A DNA stretch of 24,181 nt. It comes from a virus. Location: positions 1 to 24,181 of the IMG/VR virus record IMGVR_UViG_3300005098_000009; one strand, given 5' to 3'. The translations under genes were made by a program, and so were the position numbers. The notes under the pieces were generated by a model that did not search any database, was not told the origin of the DNA, and saw only the letters and a program-made list of their open reading frames with translations. Within the stretch, counting starts at the first letter, position 1. Each line of letters starts with the position of its first letter. This document shows positions 2,606 through 24,156 of the stretch, in pieces.

Positions 2606-3268
2606 TTATTCCCACAGTTCCTCTAAACCCGTCCAGTTTCCGCTTACCGAATTAATTTCTGGGTCGTAGCCTTTACCGTCGGCATCAACATCAATAGTTA
2701 CTCCCTTCTTAATCCTGAAGAAGGTAGCAAGCTTATTCTCAAAATCGCTACCACAAATAGAGGTCATCTTCACAGGATTCGCTCGAACCTTAAGACCTAT
2801 GATATGGCTGCTGGAGCGGTCGAATGTGTTGTCATAAATGGGCACTAAAGCCGCTTGAGGTATATAAATACCATCAGCGCACTTTGTTATATCTTCCATC
2901 TGCGGAACTATAATCTGAACGCTAACTATGTGAACGCTTTTAACCGAAAGTATGGGCATGAGATTATCTCTATCATCCGTATCTGAAGGGTCAGGTATCC
3001 AATTAGAATTTTCTATAAGCGCAAGTAGCTCATCATCGGCTGCCTCCATTAAAGAAGCGTTCGCCTCGAAACTGGAACTGGCGATAAAAGGCTTCAAAGT
3101 TATAAACGAATTTTCCGCCTCAAACCCATTGAGCTCGTCGCCACCAGTTATTGATATTTCTTTTGCGTATCCAAGATTTTTGGGCATCACACCCGAACCA
3201 GTTCCATCCTTAACAAATATGAAGCCCATGTTAAGTTGCAGATTGCTCTTATCGAATGGAAAAGCCAT
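2606..3268 (-). CDS. Major tail (tube) protein
   Basis: This 220-residue protein is beta-rich, with few long helices and many short polar turns (ITGGDELNGFEAENSFITLK, VIPIYD-type strands). That suits a tail tube subunit, though I recognise no diagnostic motif. It lies immediately upstream of the G/GT chaperone and tape measure genes and downstream of the head-completion genes, which is the conserved slot. A very strong ribosome binding site (AGGAGGTG, four bases before ATG) is shared with the capsid genes and fits a protein needed in many copies. The region 85-110 is acidic (SDTDDRDN). An alternative would be a minor head-tail joining protein, but context makes that unlikely. Confidence 0.7.
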   Translation of the reverse strand: MAFPFDKSNLQLNMGFIFVKDGTGSGVMPKNLGYAKEISITGGDELNGFEAENSFITLKPFIASSSFEANASLMEAADDELLALIENSNWIPDPSDTDDRDNLMPILSVKSVHIVSVQIIVPQMEDITKCADGIYIPQAALVPIYDNTFDRSSSHIIGLKVRANPVKMTSICGSDFENKLATFFRIKKGVTIDVDADGKGYDPEINSVSGNWTGLEELWE

Positions 3269-3281
3269 TTTTCACCTCCTT

Positions 3282-3701
3282 TTATATTATTTTTCTGAAC
3301 AATTTGAATCTTAAAGCCACGCTTGCGCCCTCTGCAACTAGAGGACGGTTTATATTACTATATATAAAATTCAAATTGCCAACCCCTAAAATATTATATC
3401 CGTCCAAAGTTTTTATAACTTTATCGTGCAAATCATAGCATTTACTCAAGTTTCTGCTATAAAAAGGCGCTTTGTGAACATATATTTGTATTTCTATTTC
3501 GGACTCCAGCAATACGGTTTTTGTCAAGCTTGCGTTTCCGTCTTCATGCGTCCAAATCAAAAGAGCAAAGGAATCATATTGTAAGTGACTTTCAACGAAC
3601 TCCTCAGAAGCCACACCGTTGGAAATTTCAACAGTCTTAAATTCCGAAATTTCCGTTTCAAGCTTTTCTTTTATATTTGTCAAAATTTCTATCGGGTTCA
3701 T
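3282..3701 (-). CDS. Probable tail terminator / neck protein (Mu gp37-like position)
   Basis: The 139-residue product has an N-terminal helix, then strands and a helix, and ends in a strand-rich tail (SVALRFKLFRKII). This resembles the compact alpha/beta fold of tail terminator proteins such as Mu gp37 or lambda U, but the match is by overall pattern and gene order only. The start ATG overlaps the stop of the preceding virion morphogenesis gene (ATGA), so translation is probably coupled. It is followed by the tail tube gene. Tail terminators form a hexameric ring that ends tube growth and docks the tail to the head. Confidence 0.55.
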   Translation of the reverse strand: MNPIEILTNIKEKLETEISEFKTVEISNGVASEEFVESHLQYDSFALLIWTHEDGNASLTKTVLLESEIEIQIYVHKAPFYSRNLSKCYDLHDKVIKTLDGYNILGVGNLNFIYSNINRPLVAEGASVALRFKLFRKII

Positions 3702-4231
3702 CTTCTTGCTCTACCCGTAAACAACCAGCCCATCGTCATGAATTTTATATCATCAACGAATTTGGGCAGAATAACCAAAAACGGTCTTGCGGGGATTTCG
3801 TGGCGCCCGGGACCTATGAGCATAAAATACTTTGTGCGTCTTATTCGGACTATTAACGGTTTAGTTAAAGTAAAAGTCCGTCCAAACTGATGAGTTGGTG
3901 CGTAAATTAAGTTAGTTCCAACCTGTAGAGTCCACTTTTTCGTTGCTTTCCAAACAATGCTGGAAAATAGTCTGCCAGAAGCTCTTAAAATTTTGACCAA
4001 AAAAGCAGACTTCTTTACTTTTTTCCACTTTTGACCTTTCTTTAAAACCCAGTCTAAATTTTGCTGAATTTTTAACGGTTTCCAGTGTTCAGGACGCCCT
4101 TCTTCAATAAAATTCCGTTGGGTTTCACGAACTAAATAAGTCCCAACGGCTCTTTGCCACGGTTCGTTGCGTTGCAACCGCTTTAAAATCCCCAACGCAT
4201 TAGGCAAAAGCATTTCAATTTTAACTCCCAT
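3698..4231 (-). CDS. Phage virion morphogenesis protein (Mu gpG-like, tail completion)
   Basis: The product is about 177 residues and follows the pattern of the phage virion morphogenesis family. Near the N-terminus it has FIEEGRPEHWKPL. Then come a lysine-rich linker, ASGRLFSSIVWKA, VGTNLIYAPTHQFG and the closing IPARPFLVIL. These blocks (F-x-G-x-P-x-W-x-PL, SG-x-L, YA-x-x-H-Q-x-G, PARPF) are the family hallmarks as I know them. Members act in tail completion and head-tail joining in Mu-like and P2-like phages. The first possible codon is GTG at 4234, but ATG at 4231 directly follows and is preferred. The gene overlaps the end of the gp36-like gene by about ten bases. Confidence 0.75.
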   Translation of the reverse strand: MGVKIEMLLPNALGILKRLQRNEPWQRAVGTYLVRETQRNFIEEGRPEHWKPLKIQQNLDWVLKKGQKWKKVKKSAFLVKILRASGRLFSSIVWKATKKWTLQVGTNLIYAPTHQFGRTFTLTKPLIVRIRRTKYFMLIGPGRHEIPARPFLVILPKFVDDIKFMTMGWLFTGRARR

Positions 4232-9840: not shown

Positions 9841-11064
9841 TTAAAAGTAGCGCTTGCCTAAAGTAGTTATATAACTTTCTTCAAATGTGTCAAGGGGAAA
9901 ATTAGTTATAGCATATCTTATAGCGTCCATAGCGTGGTCGTTAAGCTTTACTGGCTCGTCAAGCACTTTCCCGTTTTTGTCAACTTTATAAGAATAAAAC
10001 TTGATTTCTTTTATAATGTTGGTGCTTTCTTTGTCTATGTAAAGCTTAAATCTTTTGACAAAGTCTATACCGTCACGAACCGATATTTTTCTTGCTGGGT
10101 GGATGTCGAAACCCGCTCTATATATTTCCTCTATCCTTTGCGGTTCGGCGCTATCGGCAAATATCGTCCCCTTAATATTTTTCGTCTTCATCAACTCTAT
10201 CAAGTCCGCATTGGTCAAGTTAGTTTGATAAATAAGCTCTTTAATGTAAAATTTCTGGTCCCTAACTTTTATCTCCACAAGTGCGGTGGGGTTGTTGTAG
10301 CCAAAGTCTAAGCCGTAAATATACTCATCTGCGGGAATGTCATCATAGTTATCTATAACCGTCCAGTTGTCATAGATAATATTTTGCAGTTTCACGAATT
10401 CCCCGAGAGCTAAAATTCTGTAAAGGCGCTCATTCTCATATTTTAAACTTTCAAGATGCCTTTTATATTCAGCCGATAAGAAGGGGTTGTCTTTATAAGA
10501 GGAGCGAATAACTTCAACATCGCCTTTGCCTTTTATATTGCCTTGACCGTCTATCTCGACAAGATTTTCCGTTATCCAGCATTCGACAGGGTTCATAGCT
10601 AAAAACATTCTGTTGGGTTCATCGGGCTTTGTAGGAGCGGAAAGTCGTGTTTTAAGAATAACATAGTCTTCATAAGAGAATTCATTAGCTTCCTCCATGA
10701 AAATATAATTGAACTCGGTAGATTTAATTTTTTCAGGATTGTCTATTGCTCTAAAATAGACAACATTGTTTTTGAATCTTATATCGAGTTCGCTTCTATT
10801 GAATTTACAAAACCTACGGAAATCTGTGCGCTCTAATAAATCCAAAAACATTTCCCAGCAAGAAATCTTTAGAGCAGGTCGAGTTTTCCGTGTTATCAAA
10901 ATTTTTTTGTTGTTTTGATTGACAAAGTAAACCAAGAGCAATTGTAAAATAGCAAAAGATTTACCGCTGCGAGCGCCTCCTATATTTAGAACAACAGGTT
11001 TAGTGGCTTGTAAATTAGCATAAAAAATACGGGTGGCTTTAATTTTCACGGTTTTAGGTCTCAT
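9841..11064 (-). CDS. terL: Terminase large subunit
   Basis: The 407-residue protein is a two-domain packaging motor of the Terminase_3/PBSX type. The ATPase domain has a Walker A motif GGARSGKS at 29-36 and a Walker B region YIFMEEANE at 120-128, with the catalytic Glu after the acidic pair. The coupling region LAMNPV lies at about 155-160. The nuclease domain has an RNase H-like set of acids: GLDFGYNNPT (D253), FADSAEPQRI (D304) and NDHAMDAIRY (D376, D380). It pumps DNA into the prohead through the portal and cuts it. The start ATG overlaps the stop of the glycosyltransferase-like gene, so the two are coupled. The length is normal and no motif is missing. Confidence 0.95.
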   Translation of the reverse strand: MRPKTVKIKATRIFYANLQATKPVVLNIGGARSGKSFAILQLLLVYFVNQNNKKILITRKTRPALKISCWEMFLDLLERTDFRRFCKFNRSELDIRFKNNVVYFRAIDNPEKIKSTEFNYIFMEEANEFSYEDYVILKTRLSAPTKPDEPNRMFLAMNPVECWITENLVEIDGQGNIKGKGDVEVIRSSYKDNPFLSAEYKRHLESLKYENERLYRILALGEFVKLQNIIYDNWTVIDNYDDIPADEYIYGLDFGYNNPTALVEIKVRDQKFYIKELIYQTNLTNADLIELMKTKNIKGTIFADSAEPQRIEEIYRAGFDIHPARKISVRDGIDFVKRFKLYIDKESTNIIKEIKFYSYKVDKNGKVLDEPVKLNDHAMDAIRYAITNFPLDTFEESYITTLGKRYF

Positions 11065-12017
11065 CAGGCAAAGTAAGGCGATAAATGTTTTTCGACTTGT
11101 TTATCTAAAATTCGGAAATCTTCAACAGCTTTTTCTCGCCAGCGTCTTTGTTTTTCCCACAACTCAAAATAATTACTTGTTTTGACTTTTCTAATTAAAT
11201 CCTCTTTATCAGTTACGATAAAATCAGCAATATCTAAACCATAACGATTAAAAGTATTAAGACAATTGACATCGAAAAATTGCACAACTTCATAGGAAAG
11301 TTGCTCATAAAAGCGGTTAGCTGGAAAATTATAGTTTTTATGTGTTATCGTGTCCTCTATATAAAGTCCGTATCTAAAATATTTTAGAGGGCAAGAAATC
11401 TTGCCTAAATTTTTTATTGTGTCTATGTATTTTGCTTTACCCAAAAGATTTTTGAATCTATCGAGCGCTCTTAAACTACAACTTATAATAGCGCATTCGT
11501 TGTCTTTTAAATATTTCAAAAAATACTTTTTTCTGTTTTCTCTAAAGCTACCATAATAAATCAAATCATATTTTTTTACATTTCTAAAACTTACTTGGAA
11601 ATCAAAAAAGCTTAAACAATTAACATTTAAAGTCAGCCTATTTTTGTAGTTGAATTTATTAACATCCCGTTCAAAATTAGTTATTAGCAAATCGTAAGGT
11701 CGTTCCGTAAAAATTTTTCTTAAATCAGAATTCTCAGGAACATTGTATTCATTGAAAAACCTAATTATTTTCACATCTGGGTTTTTTCTCAAAATTTCTC
11801 TTATGAACTCAACTTTAGCTTTTATGTTGTCCAGATAGCGGAAACTATACGGTATTAAGATACTATTAATAGTCTTATCAACAAAATAAGTTAGTTCCTC
11901 AACACTATTTACATCAATTAGTCCAAACTTATCACGCAAATATCTAACAAAATACATATATGCGCAATTGTTCTTAGGATTGCGCAAGTGCAAAATTATA
12001 TTCAATTTCCGAAACAT
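11064..12017 (-). CDS. Glycosyltransferase-like protein between ParB-like and terL
   Basis: The 317-residue protein resembles the GT-B glycosyltransferases of surface-polysaccharide and CgeB-like type, without a match I can name. The N-terminal half alternates strands and helices (KIIRFFNEYNVPENSDLR, RPYDLLITNFERDVN). The second half has YDLIYYGSFRENRKKYF (150-166), then ISCPLKYFRYGLYIEDT and PANRFYEQLSYEVVQFFDV (232-250). The last is the N-R-x-(F/Y)-E-x-L-x-x-G-x-V block near the donor site of many such enzymes. It overlaps the ParB-like gene by 16 bases and terL by one or two, so it belongs to the packaging operon. Substrate is unknown: phage DNA, a virion protein and host surface sugar are all possible. 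Confidence 0.55.
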   Translation of the reverse strand: MFRKLNIILHLRNPKNNCAYMYFVRYLRDKFGLIDVNSVEELTYFVDKTINSILIPYSFRYLDNIKAKVEFIREILRKNPDVKIIRFFNEYNVPENSDLRKIFTERPYDLLITNFERDVNKFNYKNRLTLNVNCLSFFDFQVSFRNVKKYDLIYYGSFRENRKKYFLKYLKDNECAIISCSLRALDRFKNLLGKAKYIDTIKNLGKISCPLKYFRYGLYIEDTITHKNYNFPANRFYEQLSYEVVQFFDVNCLNTFNRYGLDIADFIVTDKEDLIRKVKTSNYFELWEKQRRWREKAVEDFRILDKQVEKHLSPYFA

Positions 12018-12595
12018 TTTATAAAATCTTCATACCTTACTGACCTTTTGCTAATTTTCAAAAGCTCCATAACATGCTCTAATTGTTCTTCATTGGTGCA
12101 CTTGATAATAACATTAAACTTTCTCATTGTTTTATCTTCATCAAAAAATTTCACATCATCATAAGTCATAATTTTAGCTACCTCGTTCAAAGAGAAACCA
12201 ACATTCAAGAGCATGTCTTCACTAAAATTTGCAAGCAATTCCCAGTCCCATTCACCTGTATTCTTATTCAAGCGTAGATTCAGCTCTTGCTCTTTTTCTA
12301 TATCCTGTATGCAAACATAAACAGCGGGAATTTTTTTAATACCCAAAGCTTTCGCTACTTCAACCCTGAAATTTCCACCTATGACAATGTTTTCTCTACC
12401 TGGAGCGCAATTTACAATTATAGGGTCAACAAATCCGAATTTCTGAATAGACTTTTTAAGTTGCTCAAACTGTTCTTTAGAGGCTTTACGAGGATTGTAT
12501 TCAGGAGCCTTCAATTCACTTATATCGACCCAAACAATTTTCAGTCCGCTTTTTTTATTAGTGTCCAAATTGTCAATTTTCTTGCTTTTCGCCAT
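12002..12595 (-). CDS. ParB/sulfiredoxin-fold protein in the terminase operon
   Basis: The product is 197 residues from the chosen ATG. It has the ParB N-terminal domain: ISELKAPEYNPRKASKEQFE, then LKKSIQKFGFVDPIIVN and IVIGGNFRVEVAKALGIKKI (about 72-91), the G-G-x-x-R-x-x-A-x-x-x-L-G form common in phage ParB-like proteins. The C-terminal part (EQELNLRLNKNTGEWDWELL, then VGFSLNEVAKIM) matches versions found next to terminase and DNA methylase genes. The fold supports CTPase, nuclease or kinase activities in different families, and I cannot choose among them. A GTG at 12604 precedes it but lies inside the GGGGGUG ribosome binding site, so ATG at 12595 is used. It overlaps terS by 23 bases. 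Confidence 0.75.
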   Translation of the reverse strand: MAKSKKIDNLDTNKKSGLKIVWVDISELKAPEYNPRKASKEQFEQLKKSIQKFGFVDPIIVNCAPGRENIVIGGNFRVEVAKALGIKKIPAVYVCIQDIEKEQELNLRLNKNTGEWDWELLANFSEDMLLNVGFSLNEVAKIMTYDDVKFFDEDKTMRKFNVIIKCTNEEQLEHVMELLKISKRSVRYEDFIKCFGN

Positions 12596-12950
12596 TTTTA
12601 TCACCCCCTTCTGCGGGTTCTATAACAATTCTGGGGACATCGATTTGACCACTTATTTCAACTTTATTAGGATTTCGCCAACCTCTAACTGCCCCTTTGT
12701 TGCATAAGAAAAATATTATAGCCCCTAAGTTCTTTTGTTTTACTAACTCTAAAAGCTTATTTTCCGCAAAATCAATTATAGCCTCCATAGTTTCTTCAAT
12801 AGCTTTAGCAAATTTCTTATCTTTTTTCAGCCAGTTATAATAAGTCTGCCTTGAAATACCTACTTCTTTACAAGTTAAAGCTATATTACCTCCCGTCTCC
12901 CAAAACAACTCCAAAAACAATTCTTTTTTTTTAGCGTTTTTCCCCTTCAT
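12573..12950 (-). CDS. terS: Terminase small subunit, HTH type
   Basis: The 125-residue protein opens with a helix-turn-helix region (GGNIALTCKEVGISRQTYYNWLKKDKKF split around 20-47), then an oligomerisation helix (EETMEAIIDFAENKLLELV). After this comes FFLCNKGAVRGWRNPNKVEI, close to the phBC6A51/DUF1804-like small terminase pattern (AI-x-F-x-L-K-x-x-x-x-x-R-G-W-x-x). It recognises phage DNA and loads TerL. It is the first gene of the leftward late operon. A consensus promoter ends about 24 bases upstream and no ribosome binding site is visible, so the mRNA has a very short leader and may be translated as nearly leaderless. Confidence 0.85.
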   Translation of the reverse strand: MKGKNAKKKELFLELFWETGGNIALTCKEVGISRQTYYNWLKKDKKFAKAIEETMEAIIDFAENKLLELVKQKNLGAIIFFLCNKGAVRGWRNPNKVEISGQIDVPRIVIEPAEGGDKNGEKQEN

Positions 12951-12965
12951 ATTTGATTTTTAATC

Positions 12966-12994
12966 TTGACAAAATTATATATTTTTTCTATAAT
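12966..12994 (+). promoter_or_regulatory. Rightward consensus promoter for the T9SS-type cargo gene
   Basis: On the plus strand TTGACA (12966-12971) is followed after exactly 17 bases by TATAAT (12989-12994), a perfect consensus promoter. The predicted start is near 13001, about 24 bases before the ATG at 13025. Its boxes mirror those of the leftward promoter, forming a near palindrome from 12966 to 13001. Confidence 0.85.
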
Positions 12995-13001
12995 TTGTCA
13001 A
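12974..13001 (-). promoter_or_regulatory. Leftward consensus promoter for the packaging/structural operon
   Basis: On the minus strand TTGACA (12996-13001) is followed after 16 bases by TATAAT (12974-12979), both perfect sigma70 consensus boxes. The predicted start site is near 12967, about 17 bases before the terS ATG. It is interlocked with the opposite rightward promoter, sharing its spacer. Confidence 0.8.
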
Positions 13002-13024: not shown

Positions 13025-13729
13025 ATGATTAGACTGTTAATAAGCTTACTTTGCTTGTTAAATTTTACCTTTGCGCAAGGTTACAATTTTCTTTTCGTCT
13101 TTTTCCAAAAAGGCTATGGTGATACCGCATTCGTTGACACAAATATTTATTGTGACTCTTGCTATTCTTCTTTTAATAAAAACTTGTGCACTCTTGCCGT
13201 TAGAGCCTCTTTAATTCCAGATACAAGTGATACAGACCGATATTGGCATGAATATTTTATCAAATTTTGGGTTTTCGATAGTTCTCTTGGGACAGCAGAT
13301 ACTTACTACATAAACGACACTTGTCTTTGCTACCGTTCTTATAGCGGAATCCCTTATTGTTATTTTTTCCCGGTAGCGCCCTGCTGGAGTCCTGTGTGTA
13401 GTTTGGTTTGGGGTTATCATTTCTGGTATATACCCATAAGCTATTTGCCTCACTTTAGCTACATCAACGATGGTGATTCGGTTTGTTTCAGATTCCAAGC
13501 GGGGCGGTTCGATAGCTACAATCATTGCTATCGCTACAACAGTAGCTTACCTATACAGTATTTCAGGATAATACTTGTAGATACGACATTGCTAAAAGTT
13601 AAAGAAAACATTAAGCCTAAACGGAAATTTCCGAAAGGTTTGTTTGATTTAAGTGGTCGCAAGGTAGAAAAGCCAATTAGAAGCGGAATCTATATAAAAG
13701 ATGGGAAAAAGATAATTATAATAAAATAA
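13025..13729 (+). CDS. Secreted protein with T9SS-type C-terminal sorting domain (lysogenic cargo gene)
   Basis: This is the only plus-strand gene in the middle of the phage. The 234-residue product starts with a clear signal peptide (MIRLLISLLCLLNFTFA, cleavage before QGYN). The mature body is aromatic-rich and cysteine-rich (about a dozen Cys, including DTNIYCDSCYSS and PCWSPVCSLVW), suggesting disulfides. The end, LFDLSGRKVEKPIRSGIYI followed by KDGKKIIIIK, is the classic pattern of type IX secretion type A sorting domains (Y/F-D-x-x-G-R-x-V, then G-I-Y, then basic-hydrophobic end). That system exists in FCB-group bacteria. The gene has its own consensus promoter and no visible ribosome binding site, and it converges on the neighbouring minus-strand gene with a 5-base gap. 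It is best read as a host-changing (moron) gene; the molecular role is unknown. Confidence 0.75.
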   Translation: MIRLLISLLCLLNFTFAQGYNFLFVFFQKGYGDTAFVDTNIYCDSCYSSFNKNLCTLAVRASLIPDTSDTDRYWHEYFIKFWVFDSSLGTADTYYINDTCLCYRSYSGIPYCYFFPVAPCWSPVCSLVWGYHFWYIPISYLPHFSYINDGDSVCFRFQAGRFDSYNHCYRYNSSLPIQYFRIILVDTTLLKVKENIKPKRKFPKGLFDLSGRKVEKPIRSGIYIKDGKKIIIIK

Positions 13730-14376: not shown

Positions 14377-14448
14377 CTAATTTTTTATAGGTTTCCACTT
14401 ATGAATTCCCAAAAAACACAACAATTTACTTAACAATTTCGGAATCAT
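14377..14448 (-). CDS. Very small protein, 23 residues, C-x-x-G-x-H-K-W motif
   Basis: A minus-strand reading frame of 23 codons follows a strong ribosome binding site (AAGGAGGCAAAG directly before ATG). It reads MIPKLLSKLLCFLGIHKWKP then IKN. The C-x-L-G-x-H-K-W pattern is one I associate with many short phage and prophage proteins. It overlaps the 3' end of the YopX-like gene by 23 bases and is followed by the GTG-start gene. The function is unknown. The ribosome binding site plus motif make it more likely real than chance. Confidence 0.55.
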   Translation of the reverse strand: MIPKLLSKLLCFLGIHKWKPIKN

Positions 14449-14863
14449 CTTTGCCTCCTTTCCTAACGCAAGGCAACAATTCAGGATTGTCAAAGATGTT
14501 GCCGATGACTTCAAGTTTCTCACATTCTCGCTTTTCTAAAACAAACATTTCACCACCCGCTATTGGTTTATAATAGAAAGCAAGGAAAGGCTCATCACCC
14601 CAGATAACTATGTAGTTTATAGCACCTCCGAAACTTATTATATCTCCCTCATAAATTTCTATTCCGTTTTTGTCTTTAAGTCCTGTGTATTGCCCAACCG
14701 TTTCAGGGTCAACTTGATATATACCCGCAAATTTGCCTGAATTATCATCAAGAAAGTAAAGCTTTCCGCACATAATATATAGTGTATTACCCTCAATGAT
14801 TAAACTCCCATATCTCCATTCTCCTGTCTCCACATCTTTGCCTCGAAACTTAATCTCCCTCAT
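14426..14863 (-). CDS. YopX family protein (copy 1)
   Basis: The 145-residue protein has the full YopX signature: MREIKFRGKDVETGEWRYG at the N-terminus, VDPETVGQYTGLKDKNGIE (about 76-94), then IYEGDIISF and the closing VIGNIFDNPELL. YopX proteins are common in phages and prophages; their role is not known. A strong ribosome binding site (CTGGAGGTAAAG) precedes the ATG. The gene overlaps the end of the second, upstream YopX gene by 14 bases, so the two are co-translated. Confidence 0.9.
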   Translation of the reverse strand: MREIKFRGKDVETGEWRYGSLIIEGNTLYIMCGKLYFLDDNSGKFAGIYQVDPETVGQYTGLKDKNGIEIYEGDIISFGGAINYIVIWGDEPFLAFYYKPIAGGEMFVLEKRECEKLEVIGNIFDNPELLPCVRKGGKDDSEIVK

Positions 14864-15206
14864 CTTTACCTCCAGTTATTAATTCAGGGTTTTCATAAAT
14901 GTTGCCAATGACTTTACCACCCCTTAACCAAGCAACATGTAACTCCATAAAATAACCTTTCTTAACATGTAAAGCTACCCACTTTGCATCCTTCCACTCA
15001 ATTATAAATAAGCCTTCATCAGGTATTCGGATTATATCCTTTTCCCACCAATCCTTATATTCAAAGCCCGTATGTTGACAAAGAGTATTCTCATCTAATT
15101 CCCCTTTATTTATAGCCTCAAAAAAACTTGCTAACCCACGCTTTAAATCTCCATATGCCCAGCATTTTTCTTTCTTATGCCACGCTCGAAACTTAATCTC
15201 TCTCAT
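14850..15206 (-). CDS. YopX family protein (copy 2, divergent)
   Basis: The 118-residue protein begins MREIKFRAWHKKEKCWAYGD and ends VIGNIYENPELI, as its neighbour does. The middle differs: LCQHTGFEYKDWWEKDIIRI replaces the QYTGLKDKNG-x-EIYEGDII block, keeping the Q-x-T-G and D-I-I cores. It is 27 residues shorter than copy 1. The pair probably arose by duplication, or by acquisition of a second family member, then diverged. A strong ribosome binding site (GTAAGGAGGCAAAG) is present. The function is unknown. Confidence 0.85.
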   Translation of the reverse strand: MREIKFRAWHKKEKCWAYGDLKRGLASFFEAINKGELDENTLCQHTGFEYKDWWEKDIIRIPDEGLFIIEWKDAKWVALHVKKGYFMELHVAWLRGGKVIGNIYENPELITGGKDEGD

Positions 15207-23703: not shown

Positions 23704-23728
23704 GTAACATTTTGCTTAAAAATGTTAC
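23704..23728. promoter_or_regulatory. Palindromic operator before the repressor gene
   Basis: GTAACATTTT (23704-23713) and AAAATGTTAC (23719-23728) form a perfect 10-bp inverted repeat with a 5-bp centre. It lies 11 bases before the preferred repressor start and about 30 bases behind the leftward -35 box. Such a site is the expected target of the HTH repressor for autoregulation. Binding is inferred. Confidence 0.65.
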
Positions 23729-23739
23729 ATCAAAAAAAT

Positions 23740-24156
23740 ATGCCGAATGTAAATAAAATTTGGGGCGAAAATCTGGTTCTTCTAAGGCAGATATTAGGCA
23801 TGAACGCAAGAGGAAAGCCTTACAAGACTGAAGAATTCGCCGTTATTTTGGGAGTTTCACGCCTTACTCTATACCGGTGGGAAAGAGGGAATGTGCCACC
23901 AAAGAGAAAACTTGAAAAATTAGCTAATTATTTTTCTATTCAGTTAGGAATTACAATAACACCAGCAGATTTGCTAAATGAAGATTTAAAAAAGAGAATC
24001 AAGGTAACTTTTAAAGAAGAGAAGCCGAAACAAAGTAAAGAAACTAAAATCAAGTTATTAAAAGACCTTGAAATTTTTGCTCGGGGAAATTTAACACAAG
24101 AGGATTTGGAAAAGCTTGTCAAGATAGCCAAAATATTAAGAGGAAAGGAGGATTAA
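23740..24156 (+). CDS. HTH-type phage repressor (CI/Cro-like)
   Basis: The only early gene on the plus strand. From ATG at 23740 the product has 138 residues; an in-frame ATG at 23722 lies inside the palindrome and is less likely. The N-terminal 60 residues are an XRE-family helix-turn-helix (ENLVLLRQILGMNARGKPYK, TEEFAVILGVSRLTLYRWER, GNVPPKRKLEKLANYFSIQL), with the classic V-S-x-x-T-L-Y-R-W-E recognition helix. The C-terminal half is charged and helical (KRIKVTFKEEKPKQSKETK, LTQEDLEKLVKIAKILRG), probably for dimerisation; there is no LexA-type peptidase domain. No ribosome binding site is seen. It diverges from the lytic operon and so is the likely lysogeny switch. Confidence 0.8.
   Translation: MPNVNKIWGENLVLLRQILGMNARGKPYKTEEFAVILGVSRLTLYRWERGNVPPKRKLEKLANYFSIQLGITITPADLLNEDLKKRIKVTFKEEKPKQSKETKIKLLKDLEIFARGNLTQEDLEKLVKIAKILRGKED

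Follow-up and report, generated by a model that had tools for sequence, protein, structure and literature searches.

The gene and its place in the phage genome

Does a small gene that runs against the rest of a phage genome code for a protein that is addressed to the type IX secretion system (T9SS) of the host? This question is raised by an open reading frame (the cargo ORF) in the window, which is one isolated IMG/VR virus record of 24,181 bp, without a host genome. The relevant features are listed below.

9841–11064, minus strand: terminase large subunit
12573–12950, minus strand: terminase small subunit-like HTH protein at the head of the late operon
12966–12994, plus strand: promoter TTGACA-17-TATAAT (12/12 match), facing the cargo ORF
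12974–13001, minus strand: promoter TTGACA-16-TATAAT (exact, read from 13001 to 12974), facing the terminase/late operon
12966–13001, no strand: inverted repeat TTGACAAA-N20-TTTGTCAA, arms made by both -35 boxes
13025–13729, plus strand: cargo ORF, 234 aa, Cys-rich protein with predicted export and a short T9SS C-terminal domain (CTD)
13025–13075, plus strand: predicted signal peptide (residues 1–17), MIRLLISLLCLLNFTFA with Q following, from inspection and hydropathy
13076–13594, plus strand: Cys- and aromatic-rich body (residues 18–190), 10 Cys, acidic, no detectable homologue
13595–13726, plus strand: predicted short T9SS CTD (residues ~191–234, about 44 aa) with motifs B, D and E and a candidate cleavage site
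23722–24156, plus strand: Xre-type repressor-like gene, reading away from the early operon

The cargo ORF extends from an ATG at 13025 to a stop codon at 13727–13729. In 100 composition-matched 6-kb shuffles, the longest ORF starting with ATG had 119 aa. Chance is a poor explanation of the length of the cargo ORF, and the ORF is real. Its synonymous codon score (0.078) is above that of random synonymous versions (0.016 +/- 0.025) and lies between the extremes of the other phage genes (0.003–0.17). A minus-strand ORF overlapping it (13211–13525) was discarded, its codon score being close to random. A Shine-Dalgarno (SD) site is absent before the ATG.

The initial annotation described the gene as opposite to all structural genes. 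This is correct and extends to the early genes; the only other gene on the plus strand is the Xre-type repressor. The early module has its start divergent from the repressor and codes for an HTH/excisionase-like protein, an Erf annealing protein, a replication initiator, a Mu Gam-like protein, an IstB-like ATPase, a RuvC-like protein and YopX. The late module codes for the terminase small-subunit-like HTH protein, a ParB-N protein, the terminase large subunit, a Mu-type portal with Mu F, an E-type capsid, and then neck and tape measure. Both modules are encoded on the minus strand, and the cargo gene is located between them, antiparallel to both. As regards the lysogenic conversion suggested in the initial annotation, the window has an Xre repressor-like and an HTH/excisionase-like gene, but no integrase was found among its scanned ORFs.

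Two minor observations concern these modules. The adjacent and overlapping YopX/phrog_98-type genes (14426–14863 and 14850–15206) are likely a tandem duplication. A 317-aa protein (11064–12017), encoded between the terminase and ParB-N genes, has a weak match to phrog_7922 (phage beta-glucosyltransferase) and is possibly a glycosyltransferase acting on DNA or on the surface.

The divergent promoter pair

The consensus promoter that had been attributed to the gene is present and matches in all 12 positions. It is one of a pair: the window contains only two exact TTGACA/TATAAT promoters, both in the same 74-bp intergenic space, and they overlap divergently inside one 36-bp stretch. We infer that two polymerases could not sit on this element simultaneously. 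The arms of the inverted repeat may be an operator. A full palindrome of this kind was not observed at the promoter of the repressor itself. Neither of the first genes flanking the promoter pair, the terminase small-subunit-like gene and the cargo gene, has an SD site, while many other phage genes have a strong one.

With its own promoter, its insertion between modules and its opposite transcription, the gene has the hallmarks of a moron. It is most likely a moron for a protein that is predicted to be exported by the T9SS and attached to the cell surface.

Signal peptide and Cys-rich body

The protein starts with a predicted signal peptide, as had been stated before. The hydropathy of this region is 2.55, and an AXA-like site (FTFA, cleaved before Q) follows the hydrophobic core; the call is based on hydropathy and inspection, not on a trained predictor. 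Among the genes of the window, only the cargo gene has this classic N-terminal arrangement. AF2 predicts a helix at residues 2–19.

The body (~173 aa) is Cys-rich, as claimed: it contains 10 Cys and 24% aromatic residues, and its pI is ~5.3. No homologue of the body was found in Pfam, NCBIfam, PHROGs, PADLOC and PDB sequences at the sensitivities used, nor in INPHARED phages, IMG/VR viral contigs and 395 sampled Bacteroidota genomes. A scan of genome contigs with an 8-residue seed did not reveal a cellular body homologue either. A Pfam LIM match of the cargo ORF (E 0.06) was attributed to chance, resulting from CxxC. The structure prediction suggested in the initial annotation was informative for the ends of the protein and not for its body. 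Without an alignment, AF2 models the whole protein poorly (pLDDT 41), the best-predicted parts being residues 201–230 and the signal peptide.

These data bear on the possibility that the gene is a stray host gene, a recently acquired cellular T9SS cargo that is expressed, but not selected for any role in the phage. None of the phage relatives compared has the gene at the same site, the body lacks a homologue in the sampled phages, and the missing SD site sets the gene apart from many of its phage neighbours. However, the frame is intact and its codon usage is phage-like, the perfect dedicated promoter is integrated with the late-operon promoter, and the searches of cellular genomes gave no source for the body. 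We consider a stray gene unlikely.

The C-terminal sorting signal

The tail (residues ~191–234) is basic (pI 10.5) and ends with GLFDLSGRKVEKPIRSGIYIKDGKKIIIIK. Three motifs of T9SS sorting signals are found at the extreme C-terminus of the ORF: motif B (DLxGRxV; DLSGRKV, residues 208–214), motif D (GIYI, 221–224) and motif E (GKK...K; GKKIIIIK, 227–234). If motif B ends with V214 and cleavage precedes K191, the spacer between motifs B and D has 6 aa (E215–S220) and the CTD has ~44 aa. For the Ile at position +2 of the cleavage site, LLKVKENI offers V192 or I196, with no clear site.

CTDs of this size have been described by Ye et al. 2025, who reported 48 short CTDs (43–55 aa) in Prevotella intermedia, in which 1–6 aa separate motif B from motif D, as against 10–17 (PMC11969387). 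A three-stranded sheet was predicted for these, models had them binding PorV in the way that long CTDs do, and experiments showed that short CTDs are cleaved and a glycan is attached at the C-terminus (PMC11969387). The cargo tail resembles them in its C-terminal ~44 aa, its motifs B, D and E and its short B–D gap. It differs in that the P. intermedia CTDs belong to cellular proteins of a Bacteroidia species and have a clear +2 Ile, versus the candidates V192 and I196 here. Long type A CTDs (TIGR04183/Por_Secre_tail) share motif B, the terminal hairpin and the secretion route, but they consist of ~70+ aa forming seven strands.

The initial annotation assigned a T9SS-type C-terminal domain and proposed a profile search for type A. 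That search came back empty: neither TIGR04183 (cut-off 23 bits) nor Pfam, NCBIfam, PHROGs or PADLOC matched the cargo ORF, and it was also not matched by a profile of long tails. TIGR04183, Pfam and NCBIfam likewise give nothing for cellular short-tail proteins, and TIGR04183 fails on the phage-borne case L220 (see below). As the same models miss cellular short CTDs, their silence on the cargo tail is not counter-evidence.

Positive evidence came from GTDB genomes, which were scanned with the cargo ORF. The scan yielded 79 loci, all from Bacteroidales and mostly from Prevotellaceae; the eight residues of the seed (exact IYIKDGKK from the cargo ORF) and the host range of the matches are subject to ascertainment. 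The loci match almost only over the C-terminal ~26–60 residues, nearly all are C-terminal in their own ORFs, and many of these ORFs code for large secreted-type proteins. The cargo tail is up to 74% identical over 26 aa to tails of Prevotellaceae cargo, at the same position relative to the stop codon; because the seed was taken from the cargo ORF, the similarity statistics are inflated over 8 residues. Outside the seed, [YF]DLxGRxVxxP is still common to the tails.

A profile of Prevotellaceae short tails, built with the window excluded, was applied to 5,026 viral ORFs. The cargo ORF scored 50 bits (E 4e-14), while the other 5,025 ORFs reached at most 6.6 bits. When compared to PDB sequences, the tail profile matched 4kca, an endo-arabinanase (E 5e-11), and 7jvi (E 0.003), and weakly the CTD of gingipain RgpB at motif B (FDMNGRRV, E 0.17). 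The AF2 model of the tail (pLDDT 84) has short strands at 32–36 and 39–43 with two short bridges, and a C-terminal beta-hairpin. Foldseek with the 45-aa tail model returned no T9SS CTD and no PDB counterpart. The class of short tails is narrow: of 296 Bacteroidota genomes drawn evenly, only the centre genome, Paraprevotella, has such tails (E<=1e-6). Sequence comparison thus confirms the tail as a predicted T9SS sorting domain, of the short type and not of type A.

The host of the phage

Strong SD sites (e.g. AAAAGGAGGTGAAAA) precede about 42% of the automatically called phage ORFs and are also found in the nearest terminase relatives (L002–L005 and L008). In terminase-related regions of Bacteroidota genomes, the proportion is mostly 0–12%, with one case of 27%. 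Bacteroidota genomes with a related terminase (up to 48%) were not accepted as the host, the regions being mostly devoid of SD sites. SprA was found in 8/8 Bacteroidota genomes checked, all of which have a related terminase; this says nothing firm about the host of the phage. Bacteroidia are not known to use the TTGACA/TATAAT consensus. Ribosomes of Bacteroidia make no use of SD sites (PMC9976891, PMC3155529). Both the strong SD sites and the sigma70-consensus promoters speak against a host that is a typical member of the Bacteroidia; the tail is nonetheless Bacteroidales-like.

Two minor observations were made on relatives of the phage terminase. One Bacteroidota terminase gene (L179, genome G184, contig C39) is broken by three stop codons and probably belongs to a decaying prophage. 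At the end of contig L008, a putative tail-fibre-type protein (11307–11633) starts with the signal-peptide-like MLKYILLFLLMPCFAHAQ.

The misfit of SD and sigma70-consensus usage with Bacteroidia (PMC9976891, PMC3155529) would be accounted for if the host had no T9SS. The tail would then be vestigial or convergent, and the protein, once exported by Sec, would work like any other protein of the periplasm or outer membrane. The terminase-nearest phages (L002–L005, 55%) share the SD trait and are without T9SS tails, as would be expected in this case. However, the tail retains motifs B, D and E with their spacing and exact C-terminal placement, which is unexpected in a vestige, and T9SS tails have been reported from the FCB group only, including the thermophilic Ca. 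Kryptonia (PMC4737851). A host devoid of T9SS is thus quite improbable.

The composition of the window (IVYWREL 0.43) hints, though not decisively, at a warm habitat. Ca. Kryptonia are extreme thermophiles of the FCB group and code for 811 TIGR04183 proteins (PMC4737851). Reverse gyrase, tried as a marker of thermophilic Bacteroidota, gave only topoisomerase-like partial matches, none over the cut-off. We tentatively suggest, as a possibility short of a prediction, that a phage of an SD-using, perhaps thermophilic FCB host outside the Bacteroidia carries short-CTD T9SS cargo. If so, short CTDs, which have been reported only in P. intermedia and in this analysis were found mainly in Prevotellaceae/Bacteroidales genomes, would exist outside the Bacteroidia and move on phages. 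T9SS-addressed phage cargo would then be a recurrent strategy and not a single oddity.

Proposed function

The evidence for the promoter, for the signal peptide and for the CTD signal is confined to the sequence level. Because the searches gave no homologue of the body, the role of the protein is read from its address labels alone. We consider it probable that the gene is a moron with its own promoter between the modules, encoding a T9SS cargo protein addressed to the host. RNA polymerase would start from the consensus promoter on the plus strand, which overlaps with the divergently oriented promoter of the late operon and its leading terminase genes. Guided by its signal peptide, the precursor would cross the inner membrane via Sec, and the disulphide-rich body would fold in the periplasm. 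The ~44-aa short CTD, with motifs B, D and E and a putative minimal three-stranded sheet, would dock on a PorV-type shuttle of the host, and the T9SS translocon of the host would carry the protein across the outer membrane. A PorU-type sortase would remove the CTD and join the ~20-kDa body to a surface polysaccharide. Recognition by PorV and PorU and surface attachment are deduced from membership in the short-CTD class.

The outcome would be a host surface bearing a protein coat encoded by the phage. We speculate that this coat serves superinfection exclusion or modifies the surface of infected or lysogenic cells. Competition as its purpose is equally speculative. By using the type IX system of its host, a phage could coat the host and thus control adsorption, competition and attachment.

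The T9SS cargo could instead act in the lytic cycle, for example by blocking virion adsorption to debris or sibling cells or by aiding release, and not in lysogens. The gene adjoins the late module and its promoter is spatially shared with that of the late operon, which is consistent with such a role. However, the promoter points away from the late promoter and competes with it for the same 36 bp, and no lysis or virion family was matched. A lytic role is conceivable but rather unlikely.

Other phage-borne T9SS cargo

Phage cargo directed to the T9SS had been called little described in the initial annotation. This holds insofar as there is one published precedent; such cargo is, however, already known. 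Bellas et al. 2020 reported the Cryophage, with three variable genes carrying T9SS tails, and called it unique; hijacking of the host T9SS for superinfection exclusion or competition was proposed (PMC7468147). Both phages encode proteins bearing T9SS sorting domains. The Cryophage has type A domains on endoglucanase, GH39 and PA14 bodies, encoded in variable islands, whereas the protein described here has a short CTD on a small orphan Cys-rich body and is encoded between early and late modules. The present case is new in its short CTD, in its orphan Cys-rich body, in its intermodule location with a shared divergent promoter and in the SD-using background of the phage.

A further case of a phage-borne short CTD is probable, its phage origin being judged from a 6.9-kb contig only. 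This virus contig (L220, IMGVR_UViG_3300032038_006530) codes for a Spi-inhibitor/C10 streptopain-like peptidase (2805–4136) with a short T9SS CTD (A1 profile, E 6e-18), and the neighbouring genes match the phage families DUF4326, phrog_8582 and T5orf172. The two cases are alike in their short CTD in a phage context and differ in the body, which is a streptopain-like protease in L220.

A scan of viral contigs for such tails with the A1 profile confirmed none. A scan for tails with a degenerate DNA pattern gave six matches (L217–L222), of which only L220 was kept: L217, L218, L219 and L222 are not T9SS tails, being short or mis-contexted frames, and L221 is a host pectate-lyase region, not a phage. 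MT836904.1 (L245, "Bacteriophage sp.") was rejected as a further case, being a bacterial contig with SusC/SusD; one probe tied to it was an artificial joining of the two ends of L220.

An address label of ~44 aa is portable and easy for phages to spread. As the family models used in annotation miss the short label, phage genomes already sequenced probably contain further cases that have gone unnoticed. For surveys, caution is advised by L245 and L221, which are bacterial regions labelled as phage and carry genuine cellular T9SS cargo genes.
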